A model generated the notes under the pieces. That model saw nothing but the letters and a program-made list of their open reading frames with translations, did no database searches and had not been told where the DNA came from. The position numbers were made by a program, and so were the translations under genes. A stretch of 32,616 nt of DNA from Candidatus Zixiibacteriota bacterium (lineage in GTDB: Bacteria > Zixibacteria > MSB-5A5 > UBA10806), in assembly GCA_024641335.1 (NCBI GenBank), contig JAHEDG010000031.1, positions 1-32,616 of the forward strand, in the 5' to 3' direction. The first letter of the stretch is position 1. Each line of letters opens with the position of its first letter. This document shows positions 5,542-32,616 of this stretch, piece after piece.

Positions 5542-6003
5542 GTGGCAGATGAAAAAATCCCCCGCCGTGACGCCATAAATTATCTTCTGGGCGCCGGTAT
5601 AGGGGCTTTGGGGGCGGCGACTCTGTATCCCATAGCGCGGTATATTATCCCACCGCCCGCTTCGGGTTCGGGTACGTCATCCGTTTCCGCCGGTAAAGTG
5701 GGAGAGCTCAAACCGAACGAGGGAAAAATTTTCAAGTTCGGCAACGCCCCTGGGATTTTGATTCTCAAGCCGGGCGGTGACCCCGCCAGCGCTTTGAGTT
5801 ACGCGGCCTTCACCGCGGTATGCACGCATCTAAACTGCACTGTTCAATACCGGACCGACATAAAGGAAATATGGTGCGCCTGTCATAACGGCCATTTTGA
5901 TCTCAACGGCAAGGTCATCTCCGGTCCTCCTCCCGAAGCGCTCAGGGAATTCCGGGTAGCCATCAAGGGCGACGAAATATTTGTCTCCAGCGAGGAGGCT
6001 TGA
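5542..6003 (+). CDS. Rieske [2Fe-2S] subunit of a cytochrome bc-type complex
   Basis: Electron-transfer subunit that takes one electron from quinol at cytochrome b and passes it to a cytochrome c. It is 153 aa. The N-terminus has RRDAINYLLGAG and one hydrophobic segment (about residues 15-36), a Tat-type signal anchor as usual for Rieske proteins. The cluster boxes are CTHLNC at 94-99 (ligands C94 and H96) and CACHNGH at 112-118 (ligands C112 and H115, with C99 and C114 as the usual disulfide pair). GTG is the start, with AAGGAG 6 bases upstream. The cytochrome b gene starts just after the stop, so the two are co-translated. The protein is short, like bacterial b6f/menaquinol types. Box II reads CACHNG rather than the common CPCHGS. 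Confidence 0.95.
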   Translation: MADEKIPRRDAINYLLGAGIGALGAATLYPIARYIIPPPASGSGTSSVSAGKVGELKPNEGKIFKFGNAPGILILKPGGDPASALSYAAFTAVCTHLNCTVQYRTDIKEIWCACHNGHFDLNGKVISGPPPEALREFRVAIKGDEIFVSSEEA

Positions 6004-14256: not shown

Positions 14257-15390
14257 ATGGATATAAGTATCGCCGCCGAAGAATATCATTACGAAAACAG
14301 AGTCGCCCTGACTCCGGCCGCCGTGAAATCGCTGTTTCGGTTCGGGCACAATGTCTTTATCGAGACCGGCGCGGGGAAGGGAGCCGGGTTTTCCGACGAC
14401 ATGTTCCGTGATGTCGGGGCCAGGATCGTCTTTTCCAAAGACGAAGCATTCATGAGAGGGAAAATTCTCCTGAAGATATTTCCTCCCACCGCCGAGGAAT
14501 ACAAGCTTCTCACCGAAAACCAGATAATCTTCTCGTTTTTACATCTGGTCGCGGCCCACAAAGAGGGTCTGGATACCCTCTTAGCCAAAAAAATTACCGC
14601 TGTCGGCCTGGAAGTAATCGAGGATCAAAGCGGCCGCCTCCCGGTTCTGACTCCCATGTCGGAACTGGCCGGCCAGATGTCCTTGCCGATTGCCAGTTAT
14701 TATCTTTCCAATATCGGCGGCGGCCGAGGCGTGCTTCTCGGAGGGGCCGCCGGGATTCCGCCGGCCACTGTCATCGTTCTGGGAGCCGGCACCGCTGGCC
14801 TGAACGCGGTCCGGGCGGCCAACGGTTTGGGATGCCACGTGATTCTTTTCGATACCAGCCTCGACCGTCTGCGTTACGCCAACGATATTTTCGGACGGCA
14901 GTTGGTTACCTATCTGCCGTTTCGCTATAATCTGGAAAAAGTGATTCCGATAGCCGACGTGGTAATAGGCGCGATCCTCATTCATGGCGCGGAAACGCCC
15001 AAGCTGATTCCCGAAGAATTAGTGCGGAAGATGAAACCGGGCTCGGTGATAATCGATATTTCCATTGACCAGGGAGGATGCGTGGAAACATCCCGGCCCA
15101 CGAATTGGGCGACTCCCTGCTACACTATGCATGAGGTGACCCATTTCTGTGTGCCCAATATGCCATCGAATGTCGGACGCACGGCAACCTATGCTCTGGC
15201 CAACGCTGTCCTGCCGTTTATCAGAATGGTGGCCGATAACGGCCCCGAAAAGGCTTTCGCCGACGATGTTGGTCTGGCCAAAGGTGTTTACACATTTGAC
15301 GGCCATGTAACCAATGAACCGGTCGGCAAACGCTTTGACGTGAAAACCAGGAAACTGGCGGATCTGCTTAAGGGGGGGAAGACAGCGTGA
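14257..15390 (+). CDS. ald: Alanine dehydrogenase (NAD-dependent)
   Basis: Reversible oxidative deamination of L-alanine to pyruvate and ammonium with NAD, in the cytosol. It is 377 aa, close to the family's 370. Residues matching the known active site of Ald are in the expected places: R15 in ENRVALTP, K73 in LLKIFPP, H96 in FSFLHLVA and D271 in SIDQGG. The NAD-binding fold has VLGAGTAGLNA (about 171-181), and SRPTNW and NMPSNVGRTA are family signatures in the second half. Less usual is KIFPP where most Ald have a KVKEP-like motif, so a related 2-oxo acid reductase role cannot be excluded. The gene ends in a 4-base overlap (GTGA) with the CoA-transferase gene, indicating translational coupling. 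Upstream lie CRP-like and other palindromes. Confidence 0.87.
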   Translation: MDISIAAEEYHYENRVALTPAAVKSLFRFGHNVFIETGAGKGAGFSDDMFRDVGARIVFSKDEAFMRGKILLKIFPPTAEEYKLLTENQIIFSFLHLVAAHKEGLDTLLAKKITAVGLEVIEDQSGRLPVLTPMSELAGQMSLPIASYYLSNIGGGRGVLLGGAAGIPPATVIVLGAGTAGLNAVRAANGLGCHVILFDTSLDRLRYANDIFGRQLVTYLPFRYNLEKVIPIADVVIGAILIHGAETPKLIPEELVRKMKPGSVIIDISIDQGGCVETSRPTNWATPCYTMHEVTHFCVPNMPSNVGRTATYALANAVLPFIRMVADNGPEKAFADDVGLAKGVYTFDGHVTNEPVGKRFDVKTRKLADLLKGGKTA

Positions 15391-16682
15391 ACTGGATCGA
15401 TCAATACCAGAGAAAGAGGACCACGGCCGAAACGGCCGTGGAATCCATCAAGTCGGGGGACAGGGTTTATATTCACCCCGGATGCTGCACTCCCCAGCAT
15501 CTGGTTGACGCTATGGTGGCCCGCAAGAATGAACTTGAAAATGTCGAGGTCTGCCATGTCCTGACTCAGGGAAAAGCCGGTTATGTAGAGCCGGGGATGG
15601 AAGGCCATTTTCGGCATCGCTCGTTTTTCAGCGGGGCCAACGTGAGACAGGCGATTAATGACGGCCGGGCCGATCAGATGCATATATTTTTGGGCGAGAT
15701 AGAGAACCTGTTTATCAGAGGCATCCTGCCTATCGATGTCGCTCTGATCCAGGTCAGTCCACCTGACGAGCATGGTTTTCTCTCCTACGGTGTCGGGGTG
15801 GATATCACCATGACCGCCGCTCAAACCGCCAAAACAGTCATCGCCCAGGTTAATCCTGAAATGCCCAGGGTGCACGGCGACTGTTTTATTCATCTTAGTA
15901 AGATTACCTATGTAGTAGAACATTCAACTCCGCTTCTGGAAATGCCCCAGGGAACTCCCGATGACGTATCATTGAAAATCGGCAGAATCATTGCCGAGAA
16001 AATCGAGGATGGTTCGACGCTGCAGATGGGTATCGGTTCCATTCCCGACGCTTTTCTGGCCGCCCTGGACGGCCGTCATGATATGGGGATTCACACGGAG
16101 ATGTTTTCCGACGGCATCATTCCTCTGGTCGAAAGCGGGGTCATCAATAATTCCAAAAAGACTCTGCATCCCGGCAAAATCGTCTCGGCCTTTACTCTAG
16201 GCACCCAGAAGATATTCGATTTTTGCCACGATAATCCGTTCATAGAATTCCATCCCTGCAAATATACCAACGATCCGTTTATCATCGCCCAGAACGAGAA
16301 AATGATCTCCATCAACTCCGCGTTGGGAATCGATCTGACGGGACAGGTTTTCGCCGATTCCCTGGGATTCGATTTTTATTCAGGTTTCGGAGGCCAGGTT
16401 GATTTCGTCAGGGGAGCGGCCAAATCCAGGGGAGGGATGCCATTTATCGCTTTTCCGGCCACGGCCAGAAACGGTACGGTCTCGCGAATTTCGCCGTTTA
16501 TGCCCCCGGGAACAGGGGTGACCACCACTCGCGCGGACGTTCACTGGATTGTGACTGAATACGGAGCGGCCTATCTTCATGGAAAATCGGTCAGGGAGAG
16601 GGTTAAGGAACTAATCGGGATCGCCGCCCCGCAATTCCACGATGAACTGACAAAATTCGCCGGCGAACATAAATGGATTTAG
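15387..16682 (+). CDS. Acetyl-CoA hydrolase/transferase family CoA-transferase (4-hydroxybutyrate CoA-transferase-like)
   Basis: Cytosolic class I CoA-transferase of 431 aa, the normal length for the 4-hydroxybutyrate/acetate/butyrate CoA-transferase group. Visible landmarks are SGDRVYIHPGCCTPQ near the N-terminus, QMGIGSIPDAFLAAL (about 212-226), the catalytic glutamate E238 in HTEMFSDG, GFGGQVDFVRGA (about 334-345) and VTEYGAAYLHGKS (about 390-402). Substrate range cannot be fixed from sequence; a short-chain acyl donor with acetate or a hydroxy acid is typical. The GTG start overlaps the dehydrogenase stop, with an AAGGGGGGG run upstream. Pairing with Ald suggests an amino-acid fermentation or assimilation step, for instance activating acids made from alanine-derived carbon (inference). 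Confidence 0.9.
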   Translation: MNWIDQYQRKRTTAETAVESIKSGDRVYIHPGCCTPQHLVDAMVARKNELENVEVCHVLTQGKAGYVEPGMEGHFRHRSFFSGANVRQAINDGRADQMHIFLGEIENLFIRGILPIDVALIQVSPPDEHGFLSYGVGVDITMTAAQTAKTVIAQVNPEMPRVHGDCFIHLSKITYVVEHSTPLLEMPQGTPDDVSLKIGRIIAEKIEDGSTLQMGIGSIPDAFLAALDGRHDMGIHTEMFSDGIIPLVESGVINNSKKTLHPGKIVSAFTLGTQKIFDFCHDNPFIEFHPCKYTNDPFIIAQNEKMISINSALGIDLTGQVFADSLGFDFYSGFGGQVDFVRGAAKSRGGMPFIAFPATARNGTVSRISPFMPPGTGVTTTRADVHWIVTEYGAAYLHGKSVRERVKELIGIAAPQFHDELTKFAGEHKWI

Positions 16683-21735: not shown

Positions 21736-22416
21736 ATGTCGAGAATTATTGTCGATCTGGAACCGCTTTATCGTCTTTATGACGGCGGTGATGTCCAACG
21801 GGCGCTCTTAAAACAGGCCATAGCCCTGGAGATCGCCGGGGCTGACGGTGTCTTCGTATATACAGGACCGTTCAGCCAGGCCCGAGCCAAAACCCTGGCT
21901 AATCTTAAAGCCAATTTGGGTATCACGCTGACCGTCAGAGTCGAATCCGACCAGGAATGGATAGAAACTCTCCTGGATATCAAACCATCCATGGTGGTAT
22001 TCGGTTTGGACGGCTCCGATCAGGATAATCTGAAGGAAAATATCATCCGCGTGCAGGTGGCTAATATCCTGGCCGCCGTGGAGATCCCGCTGGATATCAA
22101 TTCGGTCAAGCAGGCGGCCAGGCTGAAAGCCGATTATCTGATGCTCGATTGCCAACGTTACTGCGCCGTGGAATCCTTGAATGAGGAAATAGAGGAGTTG
22201 AATCTGATATCAAAGCTGGCCTCTTTGGGAGTCAAGCTGGCTATGGGGACAGCTGCCAAAGGGGATTTCAGCCGGCCGAAACTCAGAAAGCTGGCTCAAA
22301 TGAGAACCATCGAGGAATATTTCGTCGGTCTTCCGCTGCTCTCCGAATCTCTGGTACGAGGCTATACCGATACATTGCAGGATATAAAAGCTGTCGCAGA
22401 CCAGTCCCGGCATTAG
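21736..22416 (+). CDS. Divergent PdxJ-like TIM-barrel protein
   Basis: 226-aa cytosolic protein that resembles pyridoxine 5'-phosphate synthase (PdxJ) over its length: a first strand and GGDVQRALLKQAIALEIAGADG (PdxJ has a GG..PD..EAA..AE.AGADG pattern), RVESDQEWIETLLDIKP, VEIPLDIN, LASLGVKLAMGT and, at the end, EEYFVGLPLLSESLVRGY, like the PdxJ EINIGHALIA..V..G segment. The residues that define PdxJ are changed: NxDHxATLR reads VDLEPLYR, the ELHTGxYA motif reads MLDCQRYC, and the GHGLNY motif reads GTAAKG. It may therefore be a catalytically different or inactive relative. It starts at ATG 21736 with no ribosome site and a promoter directly upstream. The radical SAM gene follows after 120 bases. 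Confidence 0.68.
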   Translation: MSRIIVDLEPLYRLYDGGDVQRALLKQAIALEIAGADGVFVYTGPFSQARAKTLANLKANLGITLTVRVESDQEWIETLLDIKPSMVVFGLDGSDQDNLKENIIRVQVANILAAVEIPLDINSVKQAARLKADYLMLDCQRYCAVESLNEEIEELNLISKLASLGVKLAMGTAAKGDFSRPKLRKLAQMRTIEEYFVGLPLLSESLVRGYTDTLQDIKAVADQSRH

Positions 22417-22480: not shown

Positions 22481-22536
22481 GAGACAAAAAAGTATAAAAT
22501 GTTGTTATAAGTAATAATTAACAAGGGGTGACCGTT

Positions 22537-23427
22537 ATGCTGACCGGAGTTCATTTCCTGCTGACCTATAAATGCACCAATGAATGCGATCATTGTTTTC
22601 TATACTGCTCCCCGGAAGCCGATGGCGTCTTCTCAATCGATAAAATCAAATCGGCCTTAAGGCAGATGAAGGATGTCGGCTCGATAAACTCGGCTTATTT
22701 CGAGGGAGGAGAGCCTTTCCTTTATTATCCTCTCCTGGTTGAATCGTTGAAAATGGCCAGGGCCGCCGGATTTTCGGTCGGTGTGGTTACCAACGCCTAC
22801 TGGGCAGAATCTGAATCCGACGCTCTTTTATGGCTCGAGCCTCTGGTCGATATCGGAATCGCCGATCTTTCCGTCTCCGACGATATATTCCATAATCCGA
22901 ACAATAACAATCGTCCGCGATGGGCGCTCGACGCGGCCGGAAAGCTCGGCATACCCAGCGGTTCCATCCGCATAGAAAAACCGGTGGTGAAAACATCGCC
23001 CGATAGTATGCTAAAAGGTTTACCGGTTCTCGGAGGGGAGGTCATATTCCGGGGCAGGGCTGTGGACAAGCTCCTGAACGGGCTGCCGAGACGTCATTAC
23101 TCCGAATTCGATTCCTGCCCTCATGAGGATTTGAAGAACCCGTCCCGCGTGCACCTGGACCCCTTCGGCAATGTTCATATCTGCCAGGGGATGGTCATAG
23201 GCAATATCAATGATAAGTCTTTGAAGGATATAATGGACGAATACGAACCCGAAAACGATCCCGTTATCGGCTCGCTTTTAAAGGGAGGCCCGGCGGAGTT
23301 GGCCAGGCGGTTTAATTACGATATCACCTACGGTTTCGCGGATCATTGCCATCTCTGCTACGAGATTCGCCGGGTTCTGCAGACCCGTTTTCCTGATAGT
23401 TTACGTCCTGCACAGGTTTACGGATAG
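22537..23427 (+). CDS. Radical SAM protein
   Basis: Radical S-adenosylmethionine enzyme of 296 aa. The [4Fe-4S] motif is C13-x3-C17-x2-C20 in YKCTNECDHC, followed by a second short Cys run (LYC), then YFEGGEPFLYYP, the GGE-type SAM-binding motif, and FSVGVVTNAYW. The C-terminal part has DSCPHEDL (about 194-201), LDPFGNVHICQGMVIGN (about 208-224) and DHCHLCYEIRR (near 270), a cysteine pattern like a SPASM/Twitch auxiliary cluster domain. ATG 22537 has AAGGGG 8 bases upstream and is preferred to GTG 22528. No peptide or other substrate gene is recognisable beside it, so its reaction is unknown. Its neighbour is the divergent PdxJ-like gene, on the same strand. Confidence 0.85.
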   Translation: MLTGVHFLLTYKCTNECDHCFLYCSPEADGVFSIDKIKSALRQMKDVGSINSAYFEGGEPFLYYPLLVESLKMARAAGFSVGVVTNAYWAESESDALLWLEPLVDIGIADLSVSDDIFHNPNNNNRPRWALDAAGKLGIPSGSIRIEKPVVKTSPDSMLKGLPVLGGEVIFRGRAVDKLLNGLPRRHYSEFDSCPHEDLKNPSRVHLDPFGNVHICQGMVIGNINDKSLKDIMDEYEPENDPVIGSLLKGGPAELARRFNYDITYGFADHCHLCYEIRRVLQTRFPDSLRPAQVYG

Positions 23428-26557: not shown

Positions 26558-28762
26558 ATGCTGGGAAGACTAACGAATTCAGCGGTTTTATTGGTCGTCG
26601 CACTGGGCTTCTTTTTTGTATTAGCAATTACATCCGGGGCTTTCGCCCAGGACCCGGGCGTACCGGATTCGATGATTATCGGTAATTTGGACGGATCTCT
26701 CATCCTGGCCGGGTTGAACACCGAGATTGTAGTGCCGGTCTATATCCGTACCGACGATTCTGTGAACTTCGTGCATATTCCGGTGGGTACGGATGACGAC
26801 TATATCAGCTCGCGCGATGGCGGGGTTTTCTATCCGCCCCTTTCGCTCTGGGATGACGTTAGCTTTTTAGCGCCTGATATCGACAATCCCAGCGTAGGGT
26901 ATACCAGCCAGAGTATTCTGGGATTCGCTTATCTTTTCGATCCCAGAGATCCTCAGAATTTCCTGCTGACCAATGGTCAATGGGTGCATATCGCGGATTT
27001 CCATTTCACCTCCACCGATAACGTCGGTATTCTCGGAGATACAACCGATATTATCGAAGGCAATAATCCGGCCAATGGAAACCTGTATCTAGGCCTCTCC
27101 GACGGAACCTCCATAGTTTTTCCAGAGGTGGTCTGGGGAAAGATATATTTCCCTCCCAATACCCCTCCTGCATTCACCGAGCCGCTTGGCGGCACTTATG
27201 CTCTTAATGAGCAGTTCGGTATTTGTTTTAATGTCTCCGCTGCCGATGAAGACGATGATAACCTGGTCCTGACAGTGGATTTCGGACCTGACGATTATAC
27301 CCTCGAGGAATTGATAAACGTACCGGGTGATGTCTCCTATGAATTCTGCTGGGTCCCGGCCGAAGGAACCGCCGGAAGTTATCCTCTGACTATTACGGTC
27401 AATGACGGCAACGGTGGAGTTGTTAATCTTAATATCGTATTTGAGGTTACCCCGACGGGGCTGGTTATCGCCAGCACATCGACCCTGCCCGGCACAGTTA
27501 TTTCTCTTCCCATTTCGTTAAATAACGAAGGGGTATCATCGGCTGTCGGCGGTTTCGAAATTAATGTCAGCTGGAATCCGATCGCTATGGATCTGACCGG
27601 CGTTCTCAGAGCAGGACGGATCGGCGATTTCGAATATTTTCATGTTCATGAAAACGATCTGGACCAGGGAATAGCCAGAATAGTCGGCATAGCGGATATT
27701 AATAATGGAGATCGCACGCCTCCTCTTTCCCCCGGCACAGGACCGATTATCTATATGGATTTTGCCATTTCCAGCGACGAGGACCTGATAGGAGTCGAAC
27801 TGCCGGTATCGTTCCTTTGCCTCGATCAGAGCGATAATACACTATCGGATTCCACCGGTTACCTTTTGGTCCATCCTGAGCTGACCGACGGCATTGTCGA
27901 AATTATCGGACCCGATGATGTTCTGACCGGCGATATTAATTTAAATGGTGTGCCCTACGAGGTGGCCGATGTGGTTCTTTTTGTAAATCACATCGTAAAC
28001 CCCGACGGCTATCCCTTTAACCCCATTCAATTGGAAGCCTCGGATATTAACGCCGATGGTCTTCCGGCCACTGTCGCTGATCTGGTGCTGCTTATAAACA
28101 TAGTTACAGGCGTCGTACTCCCCCCGAAATTGGAACCGGCAGACCATAACCTCCTGGTCAGAATTCAGCCCGATAACGGTAAAATCGAATTTCGGGCCGA
28201 AACCGATATCGAACTCGGAGCCGTTCTTATAAAGCTGGCCCATGAAACCGGGGCTGAGTTGCAACCGATTGCGAATGGTGAGTTGTCCATAGCCTACTAT
28301 GACGATGGTGAGGTATTAGCCGTCTTGGCTTACCTCCCGGGCGGCGGCGGAATCGCGGCCGGAATGTCTGACCTGTTTTACATTAACGAATACAACGGCG
28401 AACTGCAGGTCTCGGAAATCTCGGCGGCGGACGGTTTCGGCAATTTGCTGAACTCGGTTTCAAGGCTCGAAGCCCCGATTCCATCTGAATATGAACTCTC
28501 CCAAAACTATCCTAACCCATTTAACGCCAACACGAAGATCAGTTTCGGCTTGCCTGAACCCGGCCAGATTCAGTTGGAAATATTCAACATCACGGGACAA
28601 AAAGTGGGCACACTTCTTGATGGTTACTTTGAAGCGGGTAGGTATGACCTTGTTTGGGATGGTACCGACTCTAATGGGCAAATTGTATCTTCGGGAGTGT
28701 ATTTCTACCGGCTGCAAACCGGTACAGTTGCGAAAACCATGAAAATGACATTACTAAAATAG
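26558..28762 (+). CDS. Large secreted protein: cohesin-like domain, dockerin-like segment and YPNPFN sorting domain (copy 1)
   Basis: Predicted exported surface protein of 734 aa. The signal peptide runs to about residue 30 (TSGAFAQ). The N-terminal 200 residues are shared with the next two genes. A cadherin/Ig-type domain follows (about 205-300; NTPPAFTEP, AADEDDDNLVL, TVNDGNGG). A cohesin-like domain comes next (about 305-450; ISLPISLNNEG, VGGFEINVSW, GPIIYMDFAI). A dockerin-like segment with D/N-rich loops (GDINLNGVPYEVADV and SDINADGLPATVADL) lies at about 460-520. The last 80 residues hold SQNYPNPFNANT and end MKMTLLK. A GGAGA precedes the ATG. An 18-base gap separates it from the next copy, so they form a tandem operon. 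Ligand unknown. Confidence 0.9.
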   Translation: MLGRLTNSAVLLVVALGFFFVLAITSGAFAQDPGVPDSMIIGNLDGSLILAGLNTEIVVPVYIRTDDSVNFVHIPVGTDDDYISSRDGGVFYPPLSLWDDVSFLAPDIDNPSVGYTSQSILGFAYLFDPRDPQNFLLTNGQWVHIADFHFTSTDNVGILGDTTDIIEGNNPANGNLYLGLSDGTSIVFPEVVWGKIYFPPNTPPAFTEPLGGTYALNEQFGICFNVSAADEDDDNLVLTVDFGPDDYTLEELINVPGDVSYEFCWVPAEGTAGSYPLTITVNDGNGGVVNLNIVFEVTPTGLVIASTSTLPGTVISLPISLNNEGVSSAVGGFEINVSWNPIAMDLTGVLRAGRIGDFEYFHVHENDLDQGIARIVGIADINNGDRTPPLSPGTGPIIYMDFAISSDEDLIGVELPVSFLCLDQSDNTLSDSTGYLLVHPELTDGIVEIIGPDDVLTGDINLNGVPYEVADVVLFVNHIVNPDGYPFNPIQLEASDINADGLPATVADLVLLINIVTGVVLPPKLEPADHNLLVRIQPDNGKIEFRAETDIELGAVLIKLAHETGAELQPIANGELSIAYYDDGEVLAVLAYLPGGGGIAAGMSDLFYINEYNGELQVSEISAADGFGNLLNSVSRLEAPIPSEYELSQNYPNPFNANTKISFGLPEPGQIQLEIFNITGQKVGTLLDGYFEAGRYDLVWDGTDSNGQIVSSGVYFYRLQTGTVAKTMKMTLLK

Positions 28763-28780
28763 GATTTGAGGACGTAGCTT

Positions 28781-30970
28781 ATGAGAAAGCAGGGGCTGCT
28801 GGCGATTTCAATTGCGGTAGCCCTGATGGTAGTGGGGGATGCATCGGGGCAGGATCCTGGATTTCAGGATTCCCTGATAATCGGTAATTTAGACGGTTCC
28901 ATAATTCCGGCCAGCTTGAATCAGGAAGTTATTATTCCTGTTTGGGTTAAAACTGACGATTCGGTTACATTCGTTCATATTCCTGTGGCCACCGATAACG
29001 ATTATATCGCGGGCCGATCGGGCGGGATTTTTTATCCACCGATGAGCCTGTGGGATGATATCAGATTTTTAGCTCCCGATTTTAACCAGCCCTTCCAGGG
29101 TTTTACAAATCAGAGTATTCTCGGATTCGCCTATCTCTCCAATCCCAGAGATCCGCAGAATTTTCTTCACACCAATTATCAGTGGGTCCATGTAGCCGAT
29201 TTTACCATGCTTACAACCGCCGATTCAAGTGTTCTGGGAGAGACTACTACCTTTATAGAAGGTTACAATCCTGCCGTTGGAGATCAGGTTTGGATTTTGG
29301 TCGACGGTGTCACTCAGGTGTTTCCAGCGACCGTTTATCCTCGAATATTCTTCACCAATAATATGGAACCGGAATTTTCAGAACCGGGATCGGATCTGAC
29401 CTTGAATATCAACACGGAGTTTCGGATTGAGTTTTTTGTGACCGTCTCCGACGCCGACGGCGATTCCATCGATCTTCAAGTCAGCTTTCCCGGAGCGAAC
29501 TATAGTTTCACTACAATGGAAAGGGAGCCGGGGCATGTTCGAAGCCGTTTCCGCTGGACACCCGGTCGGGATGTGGACGGTCAATTCGTAGCGCTATTTA
29601 CAGCCGATGACGGCCGCGGAGGAATTTCCCAGCTCCAGGTAACCTTGAATGTCACTCCGACAATTCTTCAAATCCCCGAAATTTTCGGATTTGGCGGCGA
29701 GATGATTCTGGTACCTGTCTATTTGAAGAACACAGGGATTACTTCATATGTCGGAGGCTTCGATTTGTTCGTAGGCTACGGCGAGGAGATGCTCGATTTT
29801 CGCCGGGTCATCAGGGCTCCCAGAATAAACAACTGGGAATATTTCAACTATTCCTTATGCGATTCTTCAAAAATCAGAATTGTCGGCCTGGCCGATATAA
29901 GCCATAGGGGCAACGGTCTTCCTCCGGGGGACGCTCCCATCGTTTTCCTGGAATTTCAGTTGTGCCCCGATGATATTTATATCGGACAGTATGATGATAT
30001 CTTTTTCTTAAACGAGGATGAAAACGATAATACTATTACCGATACCACCGGCTATATCCTCATTCATCCCCGGCTGGACGACGGATATGTTTATAATATG
30101 GATCCGGACAGCGTGTTGATCGGCGATATCAATTTGAATTACATCCCCTGGGAGGTATCCGACGCGGTACTGCTGGCTAATCATTTTATCCGCCCGAATT
30201 CCTACCCCTTCAATCCTGCCCAGGTCAGGGCCTCGGATACCAACGGCGATGGAATTCCGAGAACATTGCCGGATCTGGTATTTCTTATCAATGTGTTAAA
30301 CGGGACTATTCCTCCCCCGAGATTAGGAATCGGCGATTCGCATAAATCCGAAATAACCATCGTCCGCGGCCAGGCTAATCCCGACGGGTTTTCATTGCGA
30401 TACGATTCGGCCATACCCGCTGGAGCGGTTTTGATTCGTTTGGATCACCGCGGCGGCTCTCTCGGCATTCCCCGTACACCCACCGATATGACTTTGATAT
30501 ACAATGATGATAACGGGGTTCTTTCGCTGCTGCTTTACGACCTTGGCGGAAATTATATTAATCCCGGTGAAACCTTGATAGAGTTTGACGAACCGTCGGC
30601 CGGGATTACTCCGGTATTCGCCGAGATTCAGGTTTCGGACAGGTATGGTTATTTTATGCTCGTCGGCGGTATCGATGAAGTCGGCAGACCCGAAACTTTC
30701 AGCCTGTACGGCGCTTATCCCAATCCGTTTAATTCTTCCGCGGCGATTAGATTTTATCTCCCCTCTCAATCTGATGTGGAGTTAACGATTTTTAACGTTC
30801 TTGGTCAGGTTGTAAAAACTGTTTATGATAAAAATGTCGCGGCTGGCGAGAACACGATTGTCTGGAATGGAGTTGCCGATGACGGCCGGGAGGTATCATC
30901 GGGAATCTATCTCTATAGTATAAGAGCCGGCGGGTCAGAGGCCAAATCCAGAATGGTACTGCTTAAGTAA
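28781..30970 (+). CDS. Large secreted protein, tandem paralogue (copy 2)
   Basis: 729 aa with the same layout as copy 1: a signal peptide (about 1-23), the shared N-terminal domain (GNLDGS, FVHIPVAT, SLWDDIRFLAPD, SILGFAYL, NPRDPQNF), a cadherin/Ig-type domain, a cohesin-like domain (VGGFDLFVGYG), a dockerin-like segment (GDINLNYIPWEVSDA and SDTNGDGIPRTLPDL) and a sorting domain with GAYPNPFNSSA ending RMVLLK. The N-terminal domains of copies 1 and 2 are more than half identical by eye, while the middle domains have drifted. ATG 28781 has GAGGA 8 bases upstream. A terminator follows at 30976, so copies 1 and 2 are one transcription unit. The pairing suggests duplication followed by divergence of binding surfaces (inference). 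Confidence 0.9.
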   Translation: MRKQGLLAISIAVALMVVGDASGQDPGFQDSLIIGNLDGSIIPASLNQEVIIPVWVKTDDSVTFVHIPVATDNDYIAGRSGGIFYPPMSLWDDIRFLAPDFNQPFQGFTNQSILGFAYLSNPRDPQNFLHTNYQWVHVADFTMLTTADSSVLGETTTFIEGYNPAVGDQVWILVDGVTQVFPATVYPRIFFTNNMEPEFSEPGSDLTLNINTEFRIEFFVTVSDADGDSIDLQVSFPGANYSFTTMEREPGHVRSRFRWTPGRDVDGQFVALFTADDGRGGISQLQVTLNVTPTILQIPEIFGFGGEMILVPVYLKNTGITSYVGGFDLFVGYGEEMLDFRRVIRAPRINNWEYFNYSLCDSSKIRIVGLADISHRGNGLPPGDAPIVFLEFQLCPDDIYIGQYDDIFFLNEDENDNTITDTTGYILIHPRLDDGYVYNMDPDSVLIGDINLNYIPWEVSDAVLLANHFIRPNSYPFNPAQVRASDTNGDGIPRTLPDLVFLINVLNGTIPPPRLGIGDSHKSEITIVRGQANPDGFSLRYDSAIPAGAVLIRLDHRGGSLGIPRTPTDMTLIYNDDNGVLSLLLYDLGGNYINPGETLIEFDEPSAGITPVFAEIQVSDRYGYFMLVGGIDEVGRPETFSLYGAYPNPFNSSAAIRFYLPSQSDVELTIFNVLGQVVKTVYDKNVAAGENTIVWNGVADDGREVSSGIYLYSIRAGGSEAKSRMVLLK

Positions 30971-30975
30971 ACCAC

Positions 30976-30998
30976 GGGGCTGAGGCCCCTTATTTTTT
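30976..30998 (+). terminator. Rho-independent terminator after copy 2
   Basis: GGGGC (30976-30980) and GCCCC (30985-30989) pair across a TGAG loop and are followed by TTATTTTTTT. It lies 6 bases after the stop codon of the 28781-30970 gene. Confidence 0.85.
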
Positions 30999-31057
30999 TG
31001 GCAGGATTGATACCTGTTTGGATACCAATTTGTCTTTTTAGTTGTTTGATTATTCTC

Positions 31058-31087
31058 TTGACAATCTAAGTAACGGAGGATTATTTT
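31058..31087 (+). promoter_or_regulatory. Candidate promoter of copy 3, with GTAACG repeats
   Basis: TTGACA (31058-31063), a perfect -35 box, is followed 18 bases later by TATTTT (31082-31087). GTAACG occurs at 31070, 31089 and 31127, on and after the promoter. The leader would be about 160 bases long, with nothing else recognised in it. Confidence 0.45.
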
Positions 31088-31253
31088 TGTAACGTTAGTT
31101 TCTTGCAAAAAAAATAATTTAAGAAAGTAACGGTAGAATAACTAATAAGATTTTACTGTTCAATGGAATGATAAGTATCGAATCGTATTATGTTATTCTG
31201 GTCAGAGTTGATAACAGGCAAGATATCGAATGAAATTTTACGGGGGTTTTTTT

Positions 31254-32616
31254 ATGCGCAAGTCGATTTTGTTTTTAGGACTCTTTATAATGATCTGTTC
31301 GATAGCTTCGGCCCAGACGCCCGGCTATTTCTTGACTTTCGGCAATCCGGACGGCTCCGATATAGTAGTCAGTATCGACATGGATTTGGAGCTGCCGGTC
31401 TGGTATGCCAGCCCCGCGGGGAATTTGGCAGACTCGGTGAACTTCCTTCATATCGCCCTGGCCTGTAATGACAGCGTAATCAGCGGCCACAACGGCGGGT
31501 TTTTTATGTTCCCTCTTTCTAGTTGGGATGACGCTTCATTTCTGGGACCGTCGCAGGATAATAATCTCCCGGGTTACAGCTATGTCGGTATCCTCGGTTT
31601 TGCCGACCTGGGCGGTGGTCCCAACCCGTTCCTGAATACCAACGGAGACACCATTCAGATTGCGGCGTTCAGGATGCATACCGCCAATAATCTGAATTTT
31701 GTCGGCCATGGTCTCTGTCCGTTTGCCGATGGCGATCAGGGGGCTCCGAACGACGGGACCATCTTCGGCCTTCAGGACGGTGTTACCATAGTCAATCCGC
31801 AAACTACATACAGTTGCTTATATTTCAGCGAAAATCAGGACCCGGTCTGGACCGTTTTCCCAGAGGGGAACGTCGCGGCGGATAAGGGCATAGAAGTCTG
31901 TTTCGCGCTCGCGGGGGAAGATACCGATGATGATACCCTGACAATATCCGAAATAACTAACTACGGAACGGTAATCGAATATTCAGACCAGCCCGGTCAG
32001 GCTACAGCCATGTTCTGCGCTGCTTTCGACACTCCGGGCAATTATGTGGTGGAATTCGAGCTTAATGACGGCACTGTCGGTATTCCTCTTCAAGTCACGG
32101 TTGAAGTGACCCCTATAGGTCTGGTAATCGGCTGTCCGGGAGCTTTCCCCGGTATCGAGGTTTCCGTGCCTGTGCGGTTGGAAACCGCCTCATTCGAAAC
32201 AGGCGGCTTCGAGATTCTGATCAGCTGGGATAATACCGCCCTGACATATTTGGGGATAGATCCGACCGAACGTATAGATCTTGGACGGGAATATTTCCAT
32301 GTAAATCTTAACGACGGCTGCTCCAACTGCCCAGATATAAACCGGGCCAGGGTCGTCTGGATATCCGATATTAATAACGGACGGCCTCATGATCCGGCTC
32401 CTCCGGGTGATGATCCCATCTTTTACATCAGATTCGAGATCGAAGCGGATCTGCCGTTCGGAATGGTCATACCGGTGGAATTTATCACCGAGGATTATTC
32501 GGACAACGCCATCAGCGACCAAAGCGGATATCAGTTTATTCATCCTGACCTGACATCGGGGTGCGTTAGCTTGATCGATCCCAACACTTTCAAGGGCGAT
32601 CCCAATATGAATTGCT
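31254..32616 (+). CDS. Large secreted protein, third paralogue, cut by the window end
   Basis: Open from ATG 31254 to the last base, 454 codons without a stop. The signal peptide (about 1-22, ending SIASAQ) is followed by FGNPDGSD, FLHIALAC, SWDDASFLGP and YVGILGFADL, the same N-terminal domain as copies 1 and 2 but clearly more diverged. A cadherin/Ig-type domain (about 210-290) and a cohesin-like domain (about 295-440; GGFEILISWDN, PIFYIRFEIEA) come next. The last visible residues, FKGDPNMNC, correspond to the start of the dockerin-like segment. Extra cysteines (for example DGCSNCPD) are absent from the other copies. A GGGGG run 7 bases before the ATG may act as the ribosome site. It has its own promoter region, after the terminator of copy 2. 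Confidence 0.88.
   Translation, partial: MRKSILFLGLFIMICSIASAQTPGYFLTFGNPDGSDIVVSIDMDLELPVWYASPAGNLADSVNFLHIALACNDSVISGHNGGFFMFPLSSWDDASFLGPSQDNNLPGYSYVGILGFADLGGGPNPFLNTNGDTIQIAAFRMHTANNLNFVGHGLCPFADGDQGAPNDGTIFGLQDGVTIVNPQTTYSCLYFSENQDPVWTVFPEGNVAADKGIEVCFALAGEDTDDDTLTISEITNYGTVIEYSDQPGQATAMFCAAFDTPGNYVVEFELNDGTVGIPLQVTVEVTPIGLVIGCPGAFPGIEVSVPVRLETASFETGGFEILISWDNTALTYLGIDPTERIDLGREYFHVNLNDGCSNCPDINRARVVWISDINNGRPHDPAPPGDDPIFYIRFEIEADLPFGMVIPVEFITEDYSDNAISDQSGYQFIHPDLTSGCVSLIDPNTFKGDPNMNC

Follow-up and report, generated by a model that had tools for sequence, protein, structure and literature searches.

The question raised by this locus is what a protein with the layout of pyridoxine 5'-phosphate (PNP) synthase, PdxJ, might do once the residues of its active site have been replaced. 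The gene lies in a stretch of 32,616 nucleotides from a Candidatus Zixiibacteriota bacterium (contig JAHEDG010000031.1 of assembly GCA_024641335.1), to which we refer in its full length as the window. The initial annotation, made from the letters of the DNA alone, described a PdxJ-like layout with three replaced substrate-binding segments, and left the choice between a new reaction and a non-catalytic relative. We consider it probable that the protein is the inactive descendant of a Zixibacteria PNP synthase, retained for a role that is probably non-catalytic.

At the level of the whole protein, the affinity to PdxJ is clear. The Pfam family PdxJ (PF03740) matches residues 25-219 with 59 bits (E 4.7e-16) and thus above its curated cut-off of 24.5, and a profile built from nine members of the clade finds PdxJ chains among the PDB sequences (E 2.4e-24). 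Six NCBIfam PdxJ equivalog models also match, all of them far under their cut-offs (the best with 42.8 against 190 bits), so that the protein falls short of the level set for PNP synthase equivalogs. An AlphaFold2 model based on an alignment of 32 rows reaches a pLDDT of 94.1 and a pTM of 0.90. When this model is searched with Foldseek, PdxJ chains take all of the first 16 places, with E-values from 1.2e-15 to 9.1e-13; in VIA-align, the PdxJ entries score Z 26.6-29.9, six of the seven at Z 28-30, and the top structural match is the PDB PdxJ chain 3f4n_C, with Z 29.9 and an rmsd of 2.0 for 223 aligned residues. The next family is ribulose-phosphate epimerase with Z 21.2. The layout claimed initially is therefore borne out by the Pfam score and by the resemblance of the predicted fold to PdxJ crystal structures, and the profile search and structure prediction proposed at that time both lead to a PdxJ-type TIM barrel. 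A placement in another TIM-barrel family was rejected, since the family profile, the PDB profile and the fold searches all come nearest to PdxJ. By its predicted structure, the window protein is a PdxJ barrel, and other barrel families are excluded.

The active site gives a different picture. We compared 14 positions, which we take to be those of the UniProt/HAMAP annotation of PdxJ, with the E. coli numbering checked against an E. coli sequence. Only one of the 14, Gly215, is retained in the window protein according to the multiple alignment, and the three segments noticed at the outset (VDLEPLYR, MLDCQRYC and GTAAKG) are all present in the ORF. Tyr, Arg and Gly stand at the positions of His45, Glu72 and His193, which are presumably the catalytic residues of PdxJ; the Gly at His193 follows from the multiple alignment, where the KG of GTAAKG aligns on Gly192-His193. 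The position of Glu153 is occupied by the Met directly before LDCQRYC. In what follows, families are given by their sample codes: the window belongs to f1, and f2 is the other family of the same order in the sample. Cys143, which lies in LDCQRYC at the end of strand 6, is retained in 8 of the 9 f1/f2 members. One change had escaped the initial annotation, namely the deletion of the lid, i.e. the loop that closes over the active site and spans residues 95-105 of E. coli PdxJ according to PMC10471632. According to the alignment, 13 residues are missing in all five f1 members and 16 in all four f2 members; hence, the closing loop expected of a PNP synthase is lacking in 9/9. The features of the locus are listed in the table.

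Table. Coordinates in the window of the PdxJ-like gene, of its altered active-site segments and of nearby genes.
Feature	Position	Strand	Remarks
PdxJ-like protein, 226 aa	21736..22416	+	ATG at 21736, stop codon ends at 22416; without PdxJ active-site residues
Strand 1 end and the loop after it	21751..21783	+	VDLEPLYRLYD replacing NxDHxATLREAR (alignment)
Strand 2 end	21847..21876	+	GVFVYTGPFS replacing the GITIHLRGDRRHI region; His45, Arg47 and His52 gone (alignment)
Site of the 13-residue active-site lid deletion	22003..22020	+	between GLDG and SD (lid-region alignment)
Strand 6 end	22144..22164	+	LDCQRYC replacing the E-L/I-N/H-T...Y region (alignment)
Strand 7 end	22249..22269	+	TAAKGDF replacing NAGHGL; His193 position is Gly in 9/9 f1/f2 (alignment)
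Radical SAM protein	22528..23427	+	111 nt downstream of the PdxJ-like gene; Pfam Radical_SAM 39.2 bits
AlaDH/PNT-family gene and acetyl-CoA hydrolase/transferase gene	14257..16682	+	pair near the PdxJ-like gene in 4/9 f1/f2

The genome to which the window belongs is listed as 100% complete, and its single PdxJ match over the Pfam cut-off is the ORF in the window. A search for a second, normal pdxJ, as advised by the initial annotation, found none; two further PdxJ matches, with 10.5 and 10.4 bits and E-values near 0.3, do not reach the cut-off. No match to PdxA was obtained in this genome by profile search. One PdxS is present, with pdxS and pdxT adjacent and each above its NCBIfam equivalog cut-off, and the genes of IspH and IspG come after them. 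Without PdxA or a substitute, one of the substrates of PdxJ is not made, and PdxST yields PLP directly. Because PdxS and PdxT are present and PdxA is unmatched, the window gene is unlikely to act as a working sole pdxJ.

The gene content of the phylum was tallied for 97 Zixibacteria genomes with a completeness of at least 85%, as raw counts that include related genomes. PdxJ is matched in 68 of these genomes, and 29 have no match. The scores form two classes: seven genomes, termed canonical, reach 307-324 bits, and the other 61 do not exceed 248.2 bits. In the lower class, the matches of G088 and G097 are truncated. PdxA accompanies the canonical form in 6/7 genomes (the exception is G036), the lower-scoring form in 0/61 and the lack of a PdxJ match in 0/29; for PdxS, the corresponding numbers are 0/7, 58/61 (the exceptions are G033, G073 and G092) and 27/29. 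Thus, the genomic company of pdxA that would be expected of a PNP synthase is found neither in the window's own genome nor in any of the low-scoring ones. A second, smaller sample of 58 relatives overlaps with the first and shows the same pattern. It contains seven canonical full-length forms, with PdxA in six of the genomes and PdxS in none, and 25 non-canonical forms, with PdxA in none and PdxS in 24; furthermore, it includes a truncated match of a canonical family with neither PdxA nor PdxS (G057) and a genome of 52% completeness with PdxA and no PdxJ match (G019). PdxH proved uninformative as a discriminator, as the C-terminal domain of PNP oxidase (PF10590) is matched in none of the 58 genomes, not even where pdxA and canonical pdxJ occur. 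The clade profile, applied at E 1e-20, matched 79 of 132 genomes, with one match in each.

One could suppose that the window protein is still a PNP synthase, which works with an unusual active site and receives 3-amino-2-oxopropyl phosphate from another source. It is, after all, the sole PdxJ homolog found in its genome, and the position of the IspG and IspH genes next to pdxST suggests that DXP is probably made. However, nearly all of the listed substrate and catalytic positions are gone, the lid is deleted, and low-scoring PdxJ goes with pdxS and never with pdxA in the counts given above; we regard this explanation as extremely improbable. Judged from its sequence, the window protein is a homologous member of the PdxJ family and, by any feature tested, no PNP synthase, and it has almost certainly lost PNP synthesis.

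The loss of the active site is graded across Zixibacteria. Our motif alignment comprises 48 sequences of the phylum and nine PdxJ from outside it. It covers 45 of the 68 PdxJ-matched genomes (7/7 canonical and 38/61 lower-scoring), and the smaller sample contributes G004, G006 and G046, with G057 left out; for the other 23 lower-scoring genomes, the term non-canonical denotes the score class only. All 14 positions are kept in 8/8 canonical sequences, 5-10 in the 31 intermediates, and 1-3 in the nine f1/f2 sequences. Among the outside controls, 14 positions are found in 6/9 and 11 in 3/9, the latter being of the Bacteroides/rhizobial type. This type, known here from plasmids of Bacteroides, Tistrella and Rhizobium, is likewise divergent (30-37% identical to canonical Zixibacteria PdxJ), but all three of its sequences keep His45, Glu72, Thr102 and His193 among their 11 positions as well as the full lid. 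In contrast to these, His193 is missing from 40/40 aligned non-canonical sequences, where it is replaced by Gly (15), Arg (14), Asn (9), Ser (1) or Gln (1). The replacement follows the family: Arg in 11/12 of f9, Asn in 9/9 of f19, and Gly in 9/9 of f1/f2. In f9, His45 is replaced by Gln in 11/12, and Glu72 is kept in 12/12. In f19, Glu72 is changed to Gln in 7/9, and His45 and Glu153 are kept in 9/9; the Gln and Asn of this family would preserve the shape of the original residues and remove a charge or a proton transfer. Since f9 and f19 retain some of the catalytic residues, the loss of activity is a firmer conclusion for f1/f2 than for the intermediates. Five of six intermediates tested pass the cut-off of the PdxJ equivalog NF003625 despite the missing His193, and neither of the two f1/f2 members tested does. 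Automatic annotation may therefore call the intermediates PNP synthases.

Near-invariant polar residues occur on the catalytic face of f9 (10) and f19 (16). In f1, D7, Y15, C139 and N149 are invariant in 5/5 sequences, and in f2, E120, D138, C143, E145, T179 and E200 are invariant in 4/4. All of these sets count against our preferred reading of an inactive PdxJ descendant. Those of f1 and f2 would suit a new enzyme, in which the barrel would have been recruited to a different reaction with a family-specific pocket (e.g. Asp7, Cys139 and Asp/Glu at 177 in f1), and the retention of Cys143 in most f1/f2 members points in the same direction. TIM barrels switch reactions easily, and the fold comparison brings up, after PdxJ, epimerases and decarboxylases of sugar phosphates at Z about 20-21. 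On the other hand, the near-invariant polar pocket sets of f1 and f2 do not overlap, and the polar invariants that are shared by the whole clade lie, by our own assignment, at the rear (R3, K131, D133, Y134 and E193) or in helices (Q107, K125 and K160).

The conservation of the two barrel faces bears on the same issue. We calculated the mean pairwise identity per column for the catalytic face (C-terminal strand ends and the loops that follow) and for the opposite face, both assigned by ourselves from the predicted secondary structure. In canonical Zixibacteria PdxJ, the catalytic face is the more conserved one (0.77 vs 0.64, a difference of +0.13), as it is in seven PdxJ from outside the phylum (0.63 vs 0.50); diverse four-way PdxJ controls give differences of +0.09 to +0.13. 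For nine mixed PdxJ, which lie near f1/f2 in overall conservation (0.43 and 0.39, respectively), the catalytic face is ahead by a weak margin (0.54 vs 0.45, P 0.07). The intermediates show 0.39 for the catalytic and 0.46 for the opposite face (P 0.10). In f1/f2, conservation is lowest on the catalytic face, which is the inverse of the PdxJ controls: 0.27 stands against 0.58 (-0.31), and 0 of 10,000 permutations were as low. A columnwise comparison of f1/f2 with the mixed PdxJ yields -0.27 for the catalytic face (p 3e-7) and a non-significant +0.13 for the opposite face (p 0.07); hence, the loss of constraint in the pocket is clear, and a gain behind the pocket is suggestive only. The rear 'stability' face of TIM barrels is conserved for folding alone, which has to be held against our reading as well. 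With such a weakly conserved catalytic face, we hold a new enzyme to be rather unlikely. The initial inference, which named a new reaction and a relative without catalysis as the two options, fits the evidence, and of its branches we favor the second: a mainly non-catalytic role, be it structural, protein-binding or regulatory, seems probable to us.

A gene without its former function could also be in decay, i.e. it would have lost its purpose at the switch to PdxST and be on the way to deletion. The 29 genomes without a PdxJ match would agree with this explanation, as the gene has seemingly been lost repeatedly, and so would the long branch that leads to f1/f2 (0.91 changes per column). The reading frame, however, is intact in 9/9 genomes of the two families f1 and f2, the predicted fold is confident, and 21 columns are invariant among the nine sequences, of which the others are 29-44% identical to the window protein. 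For the close f1 pair G001-G003, dN/dS is 0.10, in comparison with 0.04 to 0.09 for canonical pairs where it could be computed; as most pairs have a high or saturated dS, the evidence for selection comes mainly from this one pair. Taken together, decay appears very unlikely to us. As in a pseudoenzyme, the catalytic residues are lost while the predicted fold and purifying selection (the latter mainly from the one f1 pair) are kept. The genomes without a match nevertheless imply that the function is dispensable within the phylum, and this counts against the reading of a retained PdxJ descendant.

The descent of the non-canonical forms can be followed by their locus and by the trees. Genes of a block with metG, tatD, ksgA and uncharacterized genes (Pfam names from the copies in G011 and G040) lie within 6 kb and on the same strand in 6/7 canonical and 16/16 intermediate neighborhoods. 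Because of this common locus, canonical and intermediate forms look like orthologs and not like paralogs beside a normal copy, and a horizontal or paralogous origin of the intermediates is not favored. The block is near the f1/f2 gene in 0/9 neighborhoods, some of which are short contigs, and this is a point against our preferred reading; for f1/f2, orthology therefore rests on the tree and on the single-copy state. These two families form one clade in both trees (100/99), which in one of them groups with four f5 sequences in a branch of 13 rows (98/91). In that tree, the split between canonical and non-canonical forms is not resolved; the other tree shows it (80/72). The active site may have been lost once or more than once. 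A scan of named genomes with the window protein as single query did not find its relatives; with the clade profile of nine rows, nine loci were found, eight from Zixibacteria or Candidatus Zixiibacteriota and one from an entry named 'bacterium'. In the plasmid collection, the window protein had no match and canonical Zixibacteria PdxJ matched 48 records.

Other neighborhoods differ between families, with gene calls that are crude: in G020 and G035, the pdxJ-like ORF was displaced by an overlapping one. In f9 and f17, a gene of an rluD-like pseudouridine synthase (Pfam) follows directly after the pdxJ-like gene, with a gap of 3-8 nt in 6/7 measured cases and of 76 nt in G053. Within f1/f2, a radical SAM gene of the same cluster comes after the PdxJ-like gene in 3/9 genomes, and a gene of another cluster, a TonB-dependent receptor judging by the G002 copy, in 4/9. 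The best NCBIfam match of the radical SAM protein in the window is the YydG peptide epimerase model (61 bits; cut-off 300). The f1/f2 neighborhoods do not tie the gene to a process through any partner, ligand or operon, which again speaks against the preferred reading. Six loci gave no match to Rfam families at the gathering score, and a scan for promoters and terminators gave counts close to those of shuffled sequence.

If our reading of an inactive, retained PdxJ descendant is right, B6 synthesis would have passed to PdxS-PdxT, with the PdxJ descendant kept afterwards, and selection would act on the folded barrel, perhaps on its rear face, rather than on catalysis in the old pocket. Less degenerate relatives retain pocket residues specific to their lineage, and these relatives may thus have passed through a stage of ligand binding without catalysis. 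More tentatively, and with somewhat less than even confidence, we suggest that PdxST freed PdxJ from B6 synthesis and that it was then re-purposed separately, family by family, across Zixibacteria. In that case, the phylum would have a group of novel barrel proteins that serve in ligand binding, structure or catalysis, most of them at one locus, with the window's clade as the furthest removed.

Among known systems, PdxJ itself (PF03740, TIGR00559; E. coli entries 1HO1 and 1M5W) shares the profile and the predicted fold with the window protein; a likeness in neighborhood is confined to the canonical and intermediate Zixibacteria forms. The window protein departs from it in keeping 1 of 14 positions, in the loss of the 13-residue lid, in the unmatched pdxA, in the presence of PdxST and in its sub-equivalog scores. 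The barrels of ribulose-phosphate 3-epimerase and 3-keto-L-gulonate-6-phosphate decarboxylase are next in fold at a distance (Z about 20-21 vs 29.9 for PdxJ), and they are absent from the sequence matches listed for the window protein. The nearest concept is that of a pseudoenzyme such as PDX1.2 from Arabidopsis, which the review PMC6071262 presents as a PdxS-family pseudoenzyme outside direct B6 synthesis and as a proposed regulator. The window protein, too, is a member of a B6-synthesis family that is probably kept without making B6; PDX1.2, however, is of the PdxS type and stands beside functional PDX1 copies, whereas the window protein is the sole PdxJ copy in a genome where no active PdxJ was found. 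Searches of open-licence papers brought up neither an inactive PdxJ family or PdxJ pseudoenzyme nor a report on PdxJ from Zixibacteria; the combination of Zixibacteria and vitamin B6 led to environmental surveys only.

These results bear on annotation practice. The presence of PdxJ has been used as a signature of the DXP-dependent B6 pathway (PMC9997740). Applied to Zixibacteria, this criterion would probably give the wrong pathway in 61 of the 68 PdxJ-matched genomes. At the same time, the phylum offers a graded natural series from a working enzyme to a barrel without its ancestral pocket, mostly at one locus. Here, one can trace and test how an enzyme loses the supply of its substrate and what becomes of its fold afterwards.

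Some further observations concern the window and the loci of relatives. Between positions 6000 and 13316 of the window, genes of a cytochrome b, several multihaem c-type cytochromes and an NrfD protein lie close together, and one of the multihaem cytochromes carries NapC and MtrC/MtrF-like domains; this is likely a cluster for respiratory or extracellular electron transfer. Positions 26558-32616 contain related proteins in tandem, of which two are complete (about 730 aa) and match type IX secretion sorting domains, and a third extends past the end of the window. In relatives (L079:11135-14222, L096:10070-13275 and others), the interval between ksgA and pdxJ encodes two related proteins of about 200 aa and a longer one of about 600 aa; they occur in many Zixibacteria neighborhoods, and the copies tested have no Pfam match at E 0.1. 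At L079:15023-16411, a TatD DNase domain is fused to a radical SAM domain in a single ORF.
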